From Bacteroidales bacterium (GTDB lineage Bacteria > Bacteroidota > Bacteroidia > Bacteroidales > UBA932), in NCBI GenBank assembly GCA_017502125.1, contig JAFVVN010000012.1, forward strand, positions 1 to 33,819: a DNA stretch of 33,819 nucleotides. Reading direction: 5' to 3'. How positions within the stretch are numbered: position 1 is the first letter of the stretch; each line of letters begins with the position of its first letter. A program made the translations under genes and the position numbers. This document shows positions 6,471 to 13,545 of the stretch, in pieces. The notes beneath the pieces are model-generated. The model worked only from the letters and a program-made list of their open reading frames with translations. It had not been told where the DNA came from and ran no database searches.

Positions 6471-7574
6471 TCAGACATTCGTCCAGTGGATGCGGATGCC
6501 TTTGCGTTCCATTCCACGGAACCAGGTCATCTGGCGCTTTGCAAACTGGTGTATGGCTGTGGCCAGTTGCGTGCGCATCTGTTCGAACGTCAATTCCCCT
6601 TTGGCATATAATGTGACGAATTTATATTCCAGACCATAATATATAAGGTCTTCCGCCGGAATCGGATGACGTTTTCCCTCGGAGTCGGGAGTTATGGCTG
6701 TATGGGTTCCGTTCAGCAGACTTCTGATTTCTTCCACCATGCCTTCTTCCAGACGTGAGTCCAGGCGGCGGTCGATTCTCGCGTTTCTTTCGTCGCGGCT
6801 CACAAGAGTACCTATATAATATGTGTTCTTTGGAAGGAATGCCGTCCGGTTCACAGGATGCTCCGCTTCATATATGGCAATCTCCAGAGCACGGATCAGA
6901 CGCTTGCGGGTGTCGTAGTCGGTGCTGTTGTGAAGTGGTTTCAAGGCTGCCAGCCTCTGAATCAGTTCCTCGGTGGACTCCTTGTCCAGTTCTTCTCTGA
7001 GTGCCTGGTCCGCAGGAACTTCCGGGAGGGAATACCCGCATGTGGCTACTTCCACATATAGTCCTGAACCTCCGCAGAGAATCGGAATGCCACCCCTTTC
7101 CACAATGTCCCTGTACGCCTTTTCGAAGTCGCGCTGATATTCGAAGATGTTGTATTTTGCTCCGGCATCCACAATGTCCATCAGGTGATATGGAATCTCC
7201 TCATATTCAGCCAGATCCTTTCCAGTTCCAATATCCATCCCCCTATATACCTGTCTTGAATCTGCCGAAATTATCTCGGCTCCGGAGTACGGGAGGCAAG
7301 GGTTCCCCATCCCCTGCGGCCAGGGGGGTAGCACGCTTTCTTCACCCTTGCCTCCCGTGCTCCTCTTCTGAGGACGTCTTGCCGAAAGCAACGCATTGAT
7401 CTCCCGTGCCAGGCGGACAGCATATTTCGTCTTTCCGGATGCCGTCGGGCCCAGGACACAGATCAGGTCAATCTCCCCAGACATGTACTTGTCCAGTAGT
7501 TCAGCTGCGTTGATTTCTTCTGCAGGAGGAAGTTCCGCCATCGGGGGAATCGGTGTGAAAGGTTTCTTTGCCAT
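6471..7574 (-). CDS. miaA: tRNA dimethylallyltransferase with an inserted palindrome-encoded segment
   Basis: MiaA transfers a dimethylallyl group to A37 of tRNAs that read UNN codons. The P-loop GPTASGKT is at 42-49, SADSRQVYR at 103-111, GTGKD after it, and CGGSGLY further on. The protein is 367 residues, whereas the family usually has about 300. Two features explain this: a 30-residue N-terminal extension (M31 gives MSGEIDLICVLGPTASGKT, a better match to family starts), and about 38 extra residues (about 61-98) between the helix after the P-loop and GAEIISADS. DNA 7286-7361 under that insert is a long inverted repeat, so the insert seems to be a translated palindromic element. The frame is intact, and the other conserved motifs are present. 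It is divergent from smpB and convergent with trmB. Confidence 0.92.
   Translation of the reverse strand: MAKKPFTPIPPMAELPPAEEINAAELLDKYMSGEIDLICVLGPTASGKTKYAVRLAREINALLSARRPQKRSTGGKGEESVLPPWPQGMGNPCLPYSGAEIISADSRQVYRGMDIGTGKDLAEYEEIPYHLMDIVDAGAKYNIFEYQRDFEKAYRDIVERGGIPILCGGSGLYVEVATCGYSLPEVPADQALREELDKESTEELIQRLAALKPLHNSTDYDTRKRLIRALEIAIYEAEHPVNRTAFLPKNTYYIGTLVSRDERNARIDRRLDSRLEEGMVEEIRSLLNGTHTAITPDSEGKRHPIPAEDLIYYGLEYKFVTLYAKGELTFEQMRTQLATAIHQFAKRQMTWFRGMERKGIRIHWTNV
7286..7361. repeat. palindromic element inserted in frame within miaA
   Basis: A 15-base perfect inverted repeat (7289-7303 and 7344-7358), extendable to 18 with one wobble (7286-7303/7344-7361). Inside it is a smaller hairpin, cccctg/cagggg (about 7311-7326). 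Read on the minus strand it encodes residues about 72-97 of MiaA, a stretch rich in Gly, Pro and Lys that has no counterpart in ordinary MiaA. Its base composition and symmetry are unlike the surrounding gene. Confidence 0.75.
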
Positions 7575-8360: not shown

Positions 8361-9680
8361 TTATAGGTTGAACGCAGCCTTGATCATATCGACAGAGTCG
8401 AGGAGCTCCCAGCCGAAGAACTGTACGAGTTCCTGAACGTATTTTCCGTCGCGGCGAATCGCCACGGTTGCCTTGTATGGGTCGCGGCCCACATGACCGT
8501 AGGATGCTGTCGGTTCATAAATCGGCTTCTTCAGCCCGAACTTCTCTATTATCTTAGCCGGACGAAGGTCGAAAATCTCATTTATCTTCTCAGCGATTGC
8601 AGCGTCGTCAAGTCCGGAAGCTGCTGTTCCATAAGTGTTTACATAGATGCTCACAGGACGGGCAACACCGATTGCATATGAAAGCTGGACAAGCATTTCG
8701 CGTGCCACGCCGGCTGCTACCATATTCTTGGCGATATATCTTGCTGCATATGCCGCCGAGCGGTCTACCTTTGAAGGGTCCTTTCCTGAGAAGGCGCCGC
8801 CGCCATGTGCTCCCTTTCCGCCATATGTGTCCACGATGATCTTGCGGCCTGTCAGACCTGTGTCGCCGTGAGGACCTCCGATAACGAACTTTCCTGTAGG
8901 ATTGACGTGAAGTATATGGTCACCCTTGAAGAGAGCTGCTGTCTCCGGAGCGAGGGATTCCACGAGCATCGGGAGAAGAATGTTCTGTACATCCTCTCGT
9001 ATCTTGGCCTGCATCGCCTGGTCCACGCGGTCCTGACCGAACTGGGCGCAGCCGTCAGCATAGCTCATGTTGCCGAGGGAAGCCGGAGTGAACTCGTCGT
9101 GCTGTGTCGAGATCACGATGGTGTGCACTCGAACCGGGAGGTTGGTCTGTCCGTCATACTCGATGGTGAACTGGGACTTGGAGTCAGGACGAAGGTAAGG
9201 CATAAGCTCAGGCTGCTGCTTGCGTATCTTTGCCAGCATGAGGAGGGCCTGATGGGAGAGAGCCAGCGGAAGAGGCATATATTCTTCTGTGTCACGGCAT
9301 GCGTAGCCGAACATCATTCCCTGGTCACCTGCTCCCTGAGCGTCAGCATCTTCGCCCACGACACCTCTGTTGATGTCGGCACTCTGCTCATGGAGAGCTG
9401 AGAGAATACCGCATGAGTTGCCGTCAAACATATATTCTGCCTTGTTGTATCCGATCTTGTCGATAACCCGGCGCACTGTCTTCGGAACGTCCACATATGC
9501 ATCGTCCGAGCGGACCTCACCGCCCACAACCACGAGTCCGGTGCTGCAGAATGTCTCGCAGGCAACCTTGGCCTCAGGGTCCTGACGGAGGAACTCGTCA
9601 AGAATTGCGTCGGAAATCTGGTCCGACACCTTGTCTGGGTGTCCTTCTGACACCGACTCTGATGTAAAAAGATAGTTCAT
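8361..9680 (-). CDS. metK: S-adenosylmethionine synthetase
   Basis: A 439-residue enzyme that makes S-adenosylmethionine from methionine and ATP in the cytoplasm. I chose ATG 9680 ([17 protein letters not shown]); the frame is open to 9851, but that part runs through the structured leader and has no family likeness. Motifs: [12 protein letters not shown] (13-24), [12 protein letters not shown] (116-127), the loop [13 protein letters not shown], and [19 protein letters not shown]. All substrate and metal-binding segments look intact. It stands alone, with a leader of about 300 bases carrying a SAM-II riboswitch, so its own product should repress it. Confidence 0.96.
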
Positions 9681-9723
9681 ACCCTGTAATGCGTAAAATG
9701 TAATAAGTTGTCTATCAGTTAGT

Positions 9724-9810
9724 TGTCCAGAATCGCCTGCGGCAAATGACTCAGGCGATTTGATGTAATGTGCTGTGGGACAGGGGTTTATGTGCCGCGC
9801 TTGCTGGACA
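9724..9810 (-). promoter_or_regulatory. second structured module in the metK leader
   Basis: On the minus strand, TGTCCAG (9810-9804) can pair with CTGGACA (9730-9724), enclosing about 70 bases. Inside is a perfect 9-base hairpin, AATCGCCTG/CAGGCGATT (arms 9731-9739 and 9752-9760). It lies between the terminator-like hairpin and the metK start, and no T-tract follows. It could be an anti-terminator, an mRNA-stabilising structure or a remnant of another element; I cannot tell which. Confidence 0.4.
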
Positions 9811-9838
9811 TAATAAAAGCCCCACAAAAATGCGGAGC
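9811..9838 (-). terminator. terminator-like hairpin downstream of the SAM-II aptamer
   Basis: On the minus strand, an 8-base stem with two G-U pairs (9838-9831 with 9826-9819) and a short loop is followed by TTTTATTA (9818-9811). It lies about 40 bases after the aptamer and 130 bases before the metK start, where a transcription-attenuating expression platform would be expected. Confidence 0.55.
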
Positions 9839-9878
9839 CGTCACAAAACACAAAACATTGATATGAAAGCGGTCATCA

Positions 9879-9959
9879 TCGTCGGATGGCCTATTTTTCA
9901 ATATTTTAGCATTTTTTAACGTGGTTGCAAGCAGCCAAATCTCTCCACATCCCCGACGA
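9879..9959 (-). ncRNA. SAM-II riboswitch of metK
   Basis: Minus strand. The core 9948-9903 has GTGG (9948-9945) pairing with CCAC (9924-9921), enclosing GATTTGGCTGCTTGCAA, and is followed by an A-rich stretch and GCTAAA (9910-9905). The order P1, GAUUU, UUGCAA, P1', A-rich joint, GCUAAA is that of the SAM-II class, with near-identical spacing to the well-known metX example. After GCTAAA comes a small TATT-GAAA-AATA hairpin and then GGCC (9891-9888), whose GCC could pair with GGC of the loop (9936-9934) as the pseudoknot. An outer stem (9959-9948 with 9888-9879, with a two-base bulge) encloses the whole. It senses S-adenosylmethionine, the product of the metK gene behind it. Confidence 0.85.
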
Positions 9960-9989
9960 CCCACCAAAGGAGCCACCGTTTTCGGGGCG

Positions 9990-10019
9990 CAAAGATAAAC
10001 AAAAATCCGGATATGCAAT
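9990..10019 (-). promoter_or_regulatory. promoter of the metK leader
   Basis: On the minus strand, TATCTTTG (9997-9990) matches the -7 box. A weak ATTG (10019-10016) lies 18 bases upstream, slightly closer than the 19-21 base norm. Transcription would start near 9985, just upstream of the riboswitch. Confidence 0.55.
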
Positions 10020-10159
10020 ACAGAAAGGTGGGTTTTTCTCAATATGCCGGTATGTTGAACGTTATGCCTGAAGACCTGCGGCAGATGGAGCAGGTCTGGA
10101 TTATCAGGGCCTTCACCATGGAAATATCGTCTTTAAACAAGATTGTGTGACAAATAGAT
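10020..10159. other. remaining intergenic space between the metK and TonB-receptor promoters
   Basis: No credible gene is seen. One 8-base perfect inverted repeat, agacctgc/gcaggtct (10072-10079 and 10090-10097), lies upstream of both divergent promoters without a T-tract. It might be a regulator site, but there is no second copy in the window to support that. Confidence 0.4.
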
Positions 10160-10189
10160 GTTGAAACTCCCTAAAATGTGTTATATTTG
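10160..10189 (+). promoter_or_regulatory. promoter of the Oar-like receptor gene
   Basis: TATATTTG (10182-10189) matches the -7 box; a weak GTTG (10160-10163) is 18 bases upstream. The leader before ATG 10225 would be about 30 bases. Confidence 0.55.
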
Positions 10190-10224
10190 TGGATTAAAAC
10201 TATCTATTAATCAACTAAACCGTT

Positions 10225-13200
10225 ATGAAACAAACATTTAAGTGTCTATTTGCTGCTTTTGCAGCGATGCTTGTTGCCGTTTCTGCCTTCGCGCAGATTA
10301 CGACATCATCACTTGGTGGACGCATTACTGATGCGAACGGTGAGCCAGTGATCGGTGCGGCTGTTGTCGCAACTCACGAGCCATCGGGAACTGTTTACGG
10401 TGTGACCACCAACACTGACGGACGTTATGCTATGAATGGTATGCGTTCCGGCGGTCCTTACAAGGTTGAGGTTTCTTGCCTTGGCTACAAGCCTCTCACC
10501 TACACCGATGTAAATCTTCAGCTTGCTGAGGCTTATGCATTGAACGGATCACTTCAGGATGACTCACAGATGCTTGGTGAGGCTATCGTGGTGGCTGCTC
10601 CTGCATCAAAGTTCGCAGCAGAGAAGACAGGTGCTGCAACAAACATCTCAAGCCAGCAGATGACATCTCTGCCTACAATCAGCAGAGATCTTACTGACGT
10701 TACAAGACTTTCTCCATACGGAGGAAACGGAATGACCTTCGGTGGTACTGACGGACGTACTGCAAACTTCACAGTGGACGGTGCGAACTTCAACAACAAC
10801 TTCGGTCTCAGCGACGGTCTACCAGGAGGTGGAAACCCTATCTCTCTCGATGCTATCGAGGAAATGCAGGTGGTTATCTCTCCATATGACGTACGTCAGA
10901 CCAACTTCATCGGTGGTGGTGTGAACGCAATCACCAAGTCCGGTACAAACAAGTTCATCGGAACTGCCTATGTATATCACCGCAACGAGAACATGCGTGG
11001 TAATCAGGTGGCTGGTATGGAGGTTGCAGGTGCTCGTGACCGTGACCGCAACACTACATACGGCTTCACCCTCGGTGGTCCTATCATCAAGAACAAGCTC
11101 TTCTTCTTCGTGAATGCAGAGTACTCTCAGACTCCTTCAGTGGCAGTGCGCTGGAGAGCTTCTGAAGATGGTGTGGGTGTGAATGAGAAATATCTCTCAT
11201 ATGCATCTAGAACAGACATGGAGCGTGTTCAGACTCATGTTAATGACAAGTATGGATATGACACAGGTTCTTTCACAGACTTCCCTGCAGACGAGAACAA
11301 CCTCAAGCTCCTTGCTCGTATAGACTGGAATATCAGCGACGCTCACCGTCTTGCTGTACGTTATAACTATACTAACAATACTGCATGGAAGGCTCCTAAC
11401 GCATCTTCTATGGACGGTGGTACACGTTCGGCTTTCGCCCGCACCTCTCTCTATTCTATGGCTTTTGCTAACTCTATGTACTCTATGAACAACCTCGTTC
11501 ATACAGTGTCAGTGGACCTCAACAGCCGTCTCAGCGACAATCTTTCTAACCAGTTCCTCGCAACATTCTCAAAGCTCGATGACATCCGTGGAACAAACTC
11601 AGCTGAGTTCCCATTCATCGACATCCATGACGGTACAGGTACTACAACCCAGTACATGGCCCTCGGTTACGAGCTCTTCACCTGGAACAATGCGGTTCAC
11701 AACACTGTAGCCAATGTCAAGGATGACCTTACATACTATGTAGGCAACCACAAGATCACTGCAGGTCTGAACTACGAGTATCAGATGGCTGACAATGCTT
11801 ATATGAGAAACGGTACAGGTTACTATCGTTATGAGAGCGTTGACGATTTCATCAATGGTGCTGCTCCGGAGGTTGTCTGCCTTACTTACGGATACGGTGG
11901 AGACAAAAACCCTGCTGCACGCGTTCAGTTCCACAAGGCTGGTCTCTATGCACAGGATGAGTGGAATGTAAGCGAGTCATTCAAGCTCACTTACGGTCTT
12001 CGTCTCGACGGTCTCTTCTTCGACAACGGTGACCTTATGACCAACAACGCAATCAAGGAAATCGACTACTATACAAAGGCTGGTACAGTCCGCAACATCG
12101 ACACAGGAAAGTGGCCTAACTCAAGCCTCACTGTTTCTCCAAGAATCGGTTTCAACTGGCACATCCTTGAGAACAAGAGCCTCACTCTCCGCGGAGGTAC
12201 AGGTCTCTTCTCAGGACGTCTCCCTCTCGTGTTCTTCACCAATATGCCTACCAACTCAGGTATGGTTCAGTACCAGGCACAGATCAATAACAAGAATCTT
12301 GAGAAGATGTTCGGAAAGGATGATGAAGGAAATCCTGTATACACAATGGATGTGTTCAAGGGCGGTCTCGTGACAGATGCAAACGGAAAGGCTACAACTC
12401 AGGCCCTTCTCGACAAACTCATCGGTATGGGATATCCTGAGACAATTTCAGAAGAAACTGGTGCAGTTCCATCATCAATCTCAGCTGTGGATCCTAAGTT
12501 CAAGATGCCTCAGGTTTGGAAGACATCCCTCGCTCTCGACTACACAATTCCTGTTTCATTCCCATTCTCAGTCTCTGTTGAGGGAATCTTCAACAAGACC
12601 GTCAATGGTGTGACAATCTCTGACTGGAGCATGCTCCCAGTGAACGGCTTCGCAAGACTCAACGGTGCTGACAACCGTCCTATGTACCCTGGTACATTCA
12701 GAACCGGAACAAAGGCATTCGTTCTTGAGAATACTCACAAGGGATACGGATACTCAGGAAGCGTGACAGTGAACATGCGTCCTATCGAGGGACTCAGCCT
12801 CATGGCTGCATACACTCACACTGTATCCAAGGAACTTACCAGCATGCCAGGTTCAGCAGCTGAGTCTGCATTCACATATGTTCCTACAGTTGAGGGACCT
12901 AACAACATCAAGCTTCACAATGCTTTGGATGTGACCCCTGACCGTGCTTTCATTTCAGGTACATACAGCGACAAGGTGGGTAACCACTTCAGCCTTATTT
13001 ATGAGACTTGGAGAAGAGGTAACTACTCATACATGCTCGCAAACGACATGAATGCTGACGGTTATAACTACGACGCTCTCTATATTCCTACAGATGAGCA
13101 GGTGGCAAACAACGAGTTCCGTTTCGCAACTCCTGACGATGCTACCCGTTTCATGGACTATGTTCATAATGACAAGTATCTCAGCAAGAACCAGGGCAAG

Positions 13201-13545
13201 TACGCAGAGGCTTACAGCGTACGTTCTCCTTGGGTCCACAGACTTGACTTCAGCTACAAGCATGACTTCAAGGTGAAGATCGGTCAGTCGGTGAACAAAC
13301 TTCAGCTCAGCGTGGACATCAAGAATATCCTTAACCTCTTCAACTCTAACTGGGGTGTAGCCAAGTATATGAACTCTGATCTCAATGAGGGACGTATCCT
13401 CAAGTTCGAGCACATCGACTCAGAAGGATATCCGGTATTCTCTACACCTAAGCCGGTTCACGCAAATACTCAGACATTTACACCTAACATCTCAATAGGT
13501 CAGTGCTGGTATGCTTCAGTGGGAATAAAGTATATGTTTAACTAA
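10225..13545 (+). CDS. Oar-like TonB-dependent outer-membrane receptor
   Basis: A 1106-residue protein with a signal peptide (about 1-24, ending in SAFAQ). A carboxypeptidase-regulatory-like domain follows (about 28-110: GGRITDANGEPVIGAAV, TNTDGRYAM, CLGYKP), then a TonB plug (about 125-235: DVTRLSPYGGNGMTFGG, FTVDGANFNNNFG, VNAITKSGTNKF) and a large barrel ending in YASVGIKYMFN. The plug sequence is of the Oar/OmpA-related type, distinct from SusC at 15517. No SusD follows; instead a modular lipoprotein starts 17 bases downstream, probably as its surface partner. Codons are strongly biased (CGT, AAC, GAC, CTC), unlike the SusC gene, which suggests high expression. The substrate is unknown. 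Confidence 0.88.
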   Translation: MKQTFKCLFAAFAAMLVAVSAFAQITTSSLGGRITDANGEPVIGAAVVATHEPSGTVYGVTTNTDGRYAMNGMRSGGPYKVEVSCLGYKPLTYTDVNLQLAEAYALNGSLQDDSQMLGEAIVVAAPASKFAAEKTGAATNISSQQMTSLPTISRDLTDVTRLSPYGGNGMTFGGTDGRTANFTVDGANFNNNFGLSDGLPGGGNPISLDAIEEMQVVISPYDVRQTNFIGGGVNAITKSGTNKFIGTAYVYHRNENMRGNQVAGMEVAGARDRDRNTTYGFTLGGPIIKNKLFFFVNAEYSQTPSVAVRWRASEDGVGVNEKYLSYASRTDMERVQTHVNDKYGYDTGSFTDFPADENNLKLLARIDWNISDAHRLAVRYNYTNNTAWKAPNASSMDGGTRSAFARTSLYSMAFANSMYSMNNLVHTVSVDLNSRLSDNLSNQFLATFSKLDDIRGTNSAEFPFIDIHDGTGTTTQYMALGYELFTWNNAVHNTVANVKDDLTYYVGNHKITAGLNYEYQMADNAYMRNGTGYYRYESVDDFINGAAPEVVCLTYGYGGDKNPAARVQFHKAGLYAQDEWNVSESFKLTYGLRLDGLFFDNGDLMTNNAIKEIDYYTKAGTVRNIDTGKWPNSSLTVSPRIGFNWHILENKSLTLRGGTGLFSGRLPLVFFTNMPTNSGMVQYQAQINNKNLEKMFGKDDEGNPVYTMDVFKGGLVTDANGKATTQALLDKLIGMGYPETISEETGAVPSSISAVDPKFKMPQVWKTSLALDYTIPVSFPFSVSVEGIFNKTVNGVTISDWSMLPVNGFARLNGADNRPMYPGTFRTGTKAFVLENTHKGYGYSGSVTVNMRPIEGLSLMAAYTHTVSKELTSMPGSAAESAFTYVPTVEGPNNIKLHNALDVTPDRAFISGTYSDKVGNHFSLIYETWRRGNYSYMLANDMNADGYNYDALYIPTDEQVANNEFRFATPDDATRFMDYVHNDKYLSKNQGKYAEAYSVRSPWVHRLDFSYKHDFKVKIGQSVNKLQLSVDIKNILNLFNSNWGVAKYMNSDLNEGRILKFEHIDSEGYPVFSTPKPVHANTQTFTPNISIGQCWYASVGIKYMFN

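Follow-up and report, generated by a model that had tools for sequence, protein, structure and literature searches.

Bacteroidota mRNAs mostly lack Shine-Dalgarno sequences (PMC6847099), which raises the question of how a translational riboswitch could work in this phylum. In the window, the whole 33,819-base stretch of DNA analyzed here, metK starts at 9680, 224 nt past the GCTAAA of a SAM-II element. How would such an element act on its gene? A sequence-only reading had proposed attenuation by a Bacteroidota variant of SAM-II.

The aptamer, its gene and its relatives

The Rfam covariance model, suggested in that reading as a check, gave a significant full-model match to RF01726 (SAM-II) at 9954-9896 on the minus strand (59.6 bits vs a gathering score of 44, E 3.4e-9 for the window). 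RF01726 was the sole Rfam family above its own gathering score within the window, and RF00521 (SAM_alpha) reached 19.9 bits at the element, under its cut-off of 36. The element thus lies where it had been placed, on the minus strand ahead of metK, and P1, GATTT, TTGCAA, the A-rich joint and GCTAAA were all located as claimed. Judged by this score, it is a member of an already known riboswitch family; the supposed variant had been catalogued for Bacteroidetes and marine sequences as "SAM-II long loops", RF01726 (Weinberg et al. 2010, PMC2864571 Table 1). Its parts and surroundings are as follows.

9990..9997, minus strand: TAnnTTTG promoter-like box TATCTTTG (sequence; genus-wide enrichment)
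9953..9959, minus strand: upstream arm of an outer stem, TCGTCGG, complementary to CCGACGA at 9885-9879, not conserved
9896..9954, minus strand: SAM-II aptamer (RF01726; 59.6 bits, gathering score 44)
9945..9948, minus strand: P1 5' strand GTGG, doubling as putative antiterminator core (sequence, covariance model, duplex and covariation tests)
9937..9941, minus strand: L1 GATTT, SAM pocket (covariance model; role in SAM-II according to PMC5352136)
9925..9930, minus strand: TTGCAA (seen in the sequence)
9921..9924, minus strand: P1 3' strand CCAC (sequence and covariance model)
9912..9917, minus strand: A-run, the A-rich joint (seen in the sequence)
9905..9910, minus strand: GCTAAA, with GCTAA taken as the P2b 3' strand and TTGC as its partner (sequence and covariance model)
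9871..9891, minus strand: local hairpin GGCCATC...GATGACC in the aptamer-to-linker interval (7 pairs in the plus-strand reading of the inverted repeat)
8361..9680, minus strand: metK, S-adenosylmethionine synthetase (Pfam S-AdoMet_synt N, M and C)

The gene immediately 3' of the element is metK, a SAM/methionine-gene position. The claim that metK has no Shine-Dalgarno sequence is fair, since an AGGG at -5 to -2 relative to the start was judged too near to serve. The divergent neighbor of metK (10225-13545, plus strand) encodes an outer membrane beta-barrel protein, TonB-receptor-like, with a carboxypeptidase regulatory-like domain, and an IPP transferase (miaA-like) gene lies farther downstream of metK on the same strand (6471-7574, minus strand).

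RF01726 was detected in 51/61 genomes searched as relatives, in 366/400 genomes of the window's genus (356 above cut-off) and in 102/119 genomes of the family, spanning 25/25 genera. We collected 308 loci, including 80 from the higher-scoring matches listed, 80 chosen by MetK similarity to the window and 40 spread over genera. A core pattern demanding TTGCAA and GCTAAA, which divergent aptamers escape, was found in 220 genus loci (184 unique leaders after duplicate removal) and in the 57 loci read from 20 other genera of the family. Loci without it were excluded (L052, L217, L219 and L240; L254, L283, L284, L289, L293, L294 and L302), and two of these, L240 and L283, carry core near-matches. 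Genus loci without a mapped metK start were L045, omitted, and L103, retained in the terminator tests. Some genomes hold two RF01726 matches: the two leaders of G427 (L276, L277) look alike, and the second in G038 (L051, L052) is weak (32.7 bits, sub-cut-off).

The TAnnTTTG box, which we take to be a Bacteroidota -7 element, occurs in 178/182 unique genus leaders with 90 nt upstream (shuffled 45/910). Its gap to P1 is 40 nt in the window against a genus median of 15, which places the outer stem in extra upstream sequence. That stem had been read as a feature of the variant form; in stability the window ranks 4th of 128 leaders, and across these 128 there was no own-over-swapped signal (561/2000 permutations as good), so the stem was rejected as a conserved extension. 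A TATT-GAAA-AATA hairpin, read in the same way, is present as a string in the window but in just 2/128 leaders and was likewise rejected as a conserved part. A GGTCA..TGACC version of the local hairpin appears in 16/128 relatives' leaders. The entire window leader folds just moderately better than its shuffles (z -1.97, 8/200 as good).

For the pseudoknot, both P2b strands (TTGC and GCTAA) are present, presumably paired in the register given above; the pattern by which loci were chosen included them and they are near-invariant, so covariation is uninformative there. Covariation of the GGC/GCC extension (P2a), expected from the earlier reading, was looked for in genus leaders and none was found (own-over-swapped, 640 and 808 of 2000 in leaders with a terminator; 1990 and 1663 of 2000 in direct-start leaders, in which metK begins beside or within the aptamer), leaving room for a P2a helix of three or four pairs in the window's genus. 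A P2a signal was obtained in 16 loci of other Bacteroidales families (0/2000). Part of it may be anti-aptamer pairing, because some of the downstream strands there also span GAUUU (L019), which the SAM-bound fold needs.

Terminator-like hairpin and predicted antiterminator

The hairpin with a T-rich tail that had been noted between aptamer and metK was confirmed, with a nine-pair stem at 9839-9818; a scan of 9600-10224 returned two sites of this kind, and shuffled sequence gave 0.5 on average. The elements of the proposed platform are as follows.

9943..9953, minus strand: putative antiterminator 5' strand GGGATGTGGAG, 11 pairs with 9837-9827, seen in the predicted fold of the transcript to the terminator loop
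9839..9861, minus strand: U-rich linker, forming in the predicted fold an anti-aptamer helix with the A-rich joint and GCTAAA (about 9921-9898)
9827..9837, minus strand: putative antiterminator 3' strand CTCCGCATTTT, equal to the terminator 5' arm and loop (duplex and predicted fold)
9811..9839, minus strand: intrinsic terminator-like hairpin with T-rich tail TTTATTAT (stem 9839-9818, 9 pairs, -13.5 kcal/mol)

Terminator-like hairpins of -6 kcal/mol or lower were found in 128/128 long leaders of the genus and in 9/40 shuffled ones. The hairpin picker behind this count chose the wrong hairpin in some leaders (L013, L092, L097, L105); a stricter picker, with weak tails in L023, L067 and L075, was used for the duplex tests onward. 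Attenuation therefore stands as the best reading of the leader, given the hairpins and the support for an antiterminator, a component that the sequence-only reading had missed.

In the window, the P1 5' strand and its upstream flank complement the terminator 5' arm and loop over 11 pairs (GGGAUGUGGAG with CUCCGCAUUUU). Among 116 unique pairs of P1 flank and terminator arm, own duplexes averaged -12.4 kcal/mol vs -11.2 for swapped ones (0/5000 permutations as good) and a mean of -6.2 with shuffled arms; the longest unbroken run was just 4 or 5 pairs in 14/116. For transcripts ending at the terminator loop, the predicted antiterminator pairing probability exceeded 0.5 in 117/128 leaders and in 122/384 shuffled platforms, so that 11/128 real leaders fall short of a level that about a third of shuffled platforms reach. 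The pairing is retained with changed letters in AGGUGGA/UCCGCCU (L231), CGUGGA/UCCACG (L034), GUAUGUGGA/UCCGCAUAC (L024) and CGAAAUGUGG/UCACAUUUCG (L122), and in a shifted register in L013 (GGAAAG/CUUUCC). In the flank test (109/128 leaders usable, 88 unique), positions u3-u5 were paired in 172/264 cells vs 154.9 expected within terminator subtypes (0/2000); the loci are akin, and permutation counts therefore overstate independence. Singly, u3 alone clearly exceeded chance, and u1, u2, u4, u5 and u6 did not (95, 233, 193, 153 and 680 of 2000).

P1 itself was compared across relatives, as the sequence-only reading had advised, and it covaries in direct-start leaders: at three P1 positions, 52, 51 and 43 of the 55 leaders had a pair, where permutation gave means of 24.2, 33.3 and 28.7 (0/2000 each). 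The inner variable pair there is A-T, T-A or G-C in the 52/55 (permutation mean 24.2, 0/2000), whereas it is T-A in 127/127 terminator leaders. In these, the next pair formed in 105/127 vs 97.8 (5/2000) and the outermost gave no signal (64/127 vs 64.2). A P1 that covaries without a terminator and is frozen at its inner pair with one is as expected if the 5' strand has to pair with two partners, although common descent of the terminator leaders may be part of the reason for the invariance.

Fold energies came from a model without pseudoknot and without SAM. At full length, the predicted antiterminator state of the window lies 2.6 kcal/mol below the state with P1 and terminator; over the leaders the median difference between these states is 0.6 kcal/mol (10th-90th percentile -7.9 to 7.8). 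Forcing P1 on the shorter transcript would cost 4.2 kcal/mol in the window and a median of 7.3 over leaders, with forcing setting just one pair in 6/128. By the duplex, pairing-probability and covariation tests, the predicted antiterminator and the aptamer fold would exclude one another. A predicted second helix, in which the U-rich linker pairs with the A-rich joint and GCUAAA, exceeded a probability of 0.5 in 70/128 leaders vs 51/384 shuffled; it is supporting evidence for a switch, though weaker than the P1-based antiterminator. In other genera, the terminator arms of g30 (L252, L255, L257, L298), g36 (L268, L269), g43 (L262, L264) and g29 (L276, L277) by eye complement aptamer GAUUUGAC and part of the P1 5' strand, and possibly follow the same antiterminator logic with a longer strand.

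The window element is likely to be a SAM-II riboswitch with which high SAM represses metK by ending transcription early, through a switch involving a predicted P1-based antiterminator. From what was computed for this leader, namely the identity of the aptamer, the terminator-like hairpin, the complementarity and the covariation of part of that complementarity, we infer SAM binding, the direction of the switch and termination itself. At low SAM, the P1 5' strand with its upstream flank (9953-9943) would pair with the terminator 5' arm and loop (9837-9827), assisted by capture of the A-rich joint and GCUAAA in a further helix with the U-rich linker (9861-9839); this would keep the terminator from forming, and metK would be transcribed. 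At high SAM, P1 and the pseudoknot would form and withdraw the aptamer strands, and hairpin 9839-9818 would halt transcription at the U tract.

The complementarity between P1 and the arm might instead be a by-product of a real SAM-II element, with the hairpin controlled otherwise (e.g. only through the linker and GCUAAA) or acting as a constitutive attenuator. Terminator 5' arms do resemble the P1 complement partly because they are obliged to pair with their own 3' arm, which itself resembles the P1 strand; shuffled platforms reach pairing above 0.5 in 122/384 cases, and the linker helix is enriched in its own right (70/128 vs 51/384). We nevertheless regard this account as unlikely, as the complementarity extends into loop positions that the hairpin does not use (e.g. 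L122, L100, L018, L024, L231), the arm covaries with the P1 upstream flank, and P1 is free to vary in direct-start leaders but frozen in those with a terminator.

Control of metK translation at a distance, with the hairpin serving as an RNA-stability or processing element, has a precedent in Sinorhizobium meliloti metA, where SAM-II controls a distant AUG across an intervening terminator (PMC9373788). It seems quite unlikely here, given the 224 nt between GCTAAA and metK with a terminator-like hairpin between them and the hairpins with T-rich tails in 128/128 long leaders. An RNA that matches the aptamer yet has lost SAM sensing, or senses a near relative of SAM, would fit the lack of P2a covariation in the genus; against this stand a full-length RF01726 match above cut-off, intact GATTT, TTGCAA and GCTAAA, the position ahead of metK and the presence of the element in 366/400 genus genomes, which together make it very improbable.

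Likeness to known SAM riboswitches

In Firmicutes SAM-I type attenuators, aptamer P1 excludes an antiterminator built with one of the P1 strands. The window leader shares this exclusion and differs in its aptamer and in having a P1 5' strand predicted to invade the terminator arm. Such attenuators are described in general terms in PMC2258182. Among SAM-II elements, terminators had been predicted earlier in alpha- and beta-Proteobacteria (PMC2258182, PMC1273637). The alpha-proteobacterial family RF00521 (Corbino et al. 2005, PMC1273637; Barrick and Breaker 2007, PMC2258182) has the same core class as the window element, and many of its members likewise carry putative terminators between pseudoknot and gene, but the window scores just 19.9 bits against its cut-off of 36. 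A Bacteroides thetaiotaomicron example already appears in the 2005 SAM-II alignment (PMC1273637).

In S. meliloti, termination upon SAM binding was predicted for metZ, as proposed here, and the metA riboswitch is followed by a terminator, as in the window; unlike the window, metA has a Shine-Dalgarno sequence, a distant AUG and a terminator for which no antiterminator could be predicted (PMC9373788). The closest relatives, the SAM-II long loops, agree with the window in family (above the gathering score), in phylum and in a metabolically fitting gene. To these the window adds a terminator and a predicted P1-based antiterminator, with no platform description noticed in the main text of PMC2864571, and its genus differs in a P2a without covariation. 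Among the literature searched, mostly open-access titles and the starts of abstracts, we noticed neither a Bacteroidota SAM-II antiterminator nor a start codon within a SAM-II aptamer. The window thus offers a concrete, if predicted, antiterminator for a SAM-II long-loop leader.

Predicted start codons beside and inside the aptamer

Among the 184 unique genus leaders, the spacing between GCTAAA and the metK ATG is bimodal: 127 leaders have 49 nt or more, and 55 have 0-6 nt or an ATG inside the motif. No leader has 7-48 nt, and 2 are without a mapped start. Direct-start leaders, in which GCUAAA abuts the metK AUG, accordingly make up 55/182 of the unique leaders with a mapped start (four of them starting inside AUGCUAAA), proportions that reflect the chosen loci and not population frequencies. 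This second platform of the genus had also been missed by the sequence-only reading. Elsewhere in the family, each of the 12 loci that were read from g39, g46, g47 and g49 has the short form (0-3 nt), and in one locus of g42 metK starts 11 nt past GCTAAA. The 12 loci are L273, L282, L295 and L297 (g39), L281, L292 and L303 (g46), L243, L256 and L308 (g47), and L270 and L305 (g49).

Adenines at -3, -6, -12 and -13 favor initiation in Flavobacterium johnsoniae (PMC6847099). Of the family's 69 direct-start loci (56 from the genus and 13 from other genera, with the g42 locus at 11 nt counted), 63 have A at -3, 63 at -12, 50 at -11 and just 41 at -6. In the predicted folds of 51 direct-start leaders, bases from -12 to +3 are less often paired than those of shuffled sequences (median unpaired 0.69 vs 0.47). 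SAM binding may block initiation in direct-start leaders. A caution comes from S. meliloti metA, where translation does not begin at the AUG beside the SAM-II aptamer (PMC9373788).

In five rumen-type loci (L234, L235, L237, L238, L239; 942-1008 each, four unique leaders), the AUG of AUGCUAAA is the sole plausible metK start, with a predicted N-terminus MLKNYLF. Followed upstream in frame, 4/5 reach a stop at the fourth codon without passing a start codon; the L235 frame runs on farther and contains one TTG. Additional AUGs close to starts are under-represented in Bacteroidetes (PMC6847099), which makes it less likely that the AUG in AUGCUAAA stands idle, or speaks for its being used. The embedded-start aptamers score 39.1 to 43.3 bits, below the RF01726 threshold of 44 (E 1.7e-5 to 1.7e-4 for 16,480 bases), and ten other direct-start loci scanned were all above it. 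With core and P1 present, the five look like divergent SAM-II relatives and are not classed as RF01726 members.

A tree of 188 MetK fragments (quick method, LG+G4, SH-aLRT only; a single gene, with some rows partial and several long) places the five embedded-start loci in a starred clade, nested in a starred group with six further rows that all carry terminators. The long/short label requires 11 changes on this tree, of which starred branches force at least six, and 8 on the genus rows alone. The SAM-II aptamer may accordingly be a module with interchangeable outputs in this family, a view to which we give even chances. One output would be the P1-based attenuation of the window; the other would be a start-codon switch free of Shine-Dalgarno sequences, with the A-rich joint and GCUAAA as ribosome landing site and an AUG that lies 0-6 nt past them or, for a single rumen clade, within AUGCUAAA, so that part of the binding pocket also encodes M-L-K, the first residues of SAM synthetase. 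The outputs would have been swapped repeatedly. Such an exchange of outputs, with start codons next to the aptamer or within it, would be a more interesting result than the window element itself: one aptamer class and one gene with two outputs among related species provide natural matched pairs for expression-platform evolution, and a case in which the aptamer itself may serve as a ribosome landing site.

The AUG of the aptamer also opens a frame of three or four codons in 89/161 long leaders (not de-duplicated), and we considered it a candidate short upstream ORF in terminator leaders. Among direct-start loci, an aptamer AUG that would be out of the metK frame and not meet the TGA overlapping the metK start is rare (6/69), a rarity inflated by relatedness.
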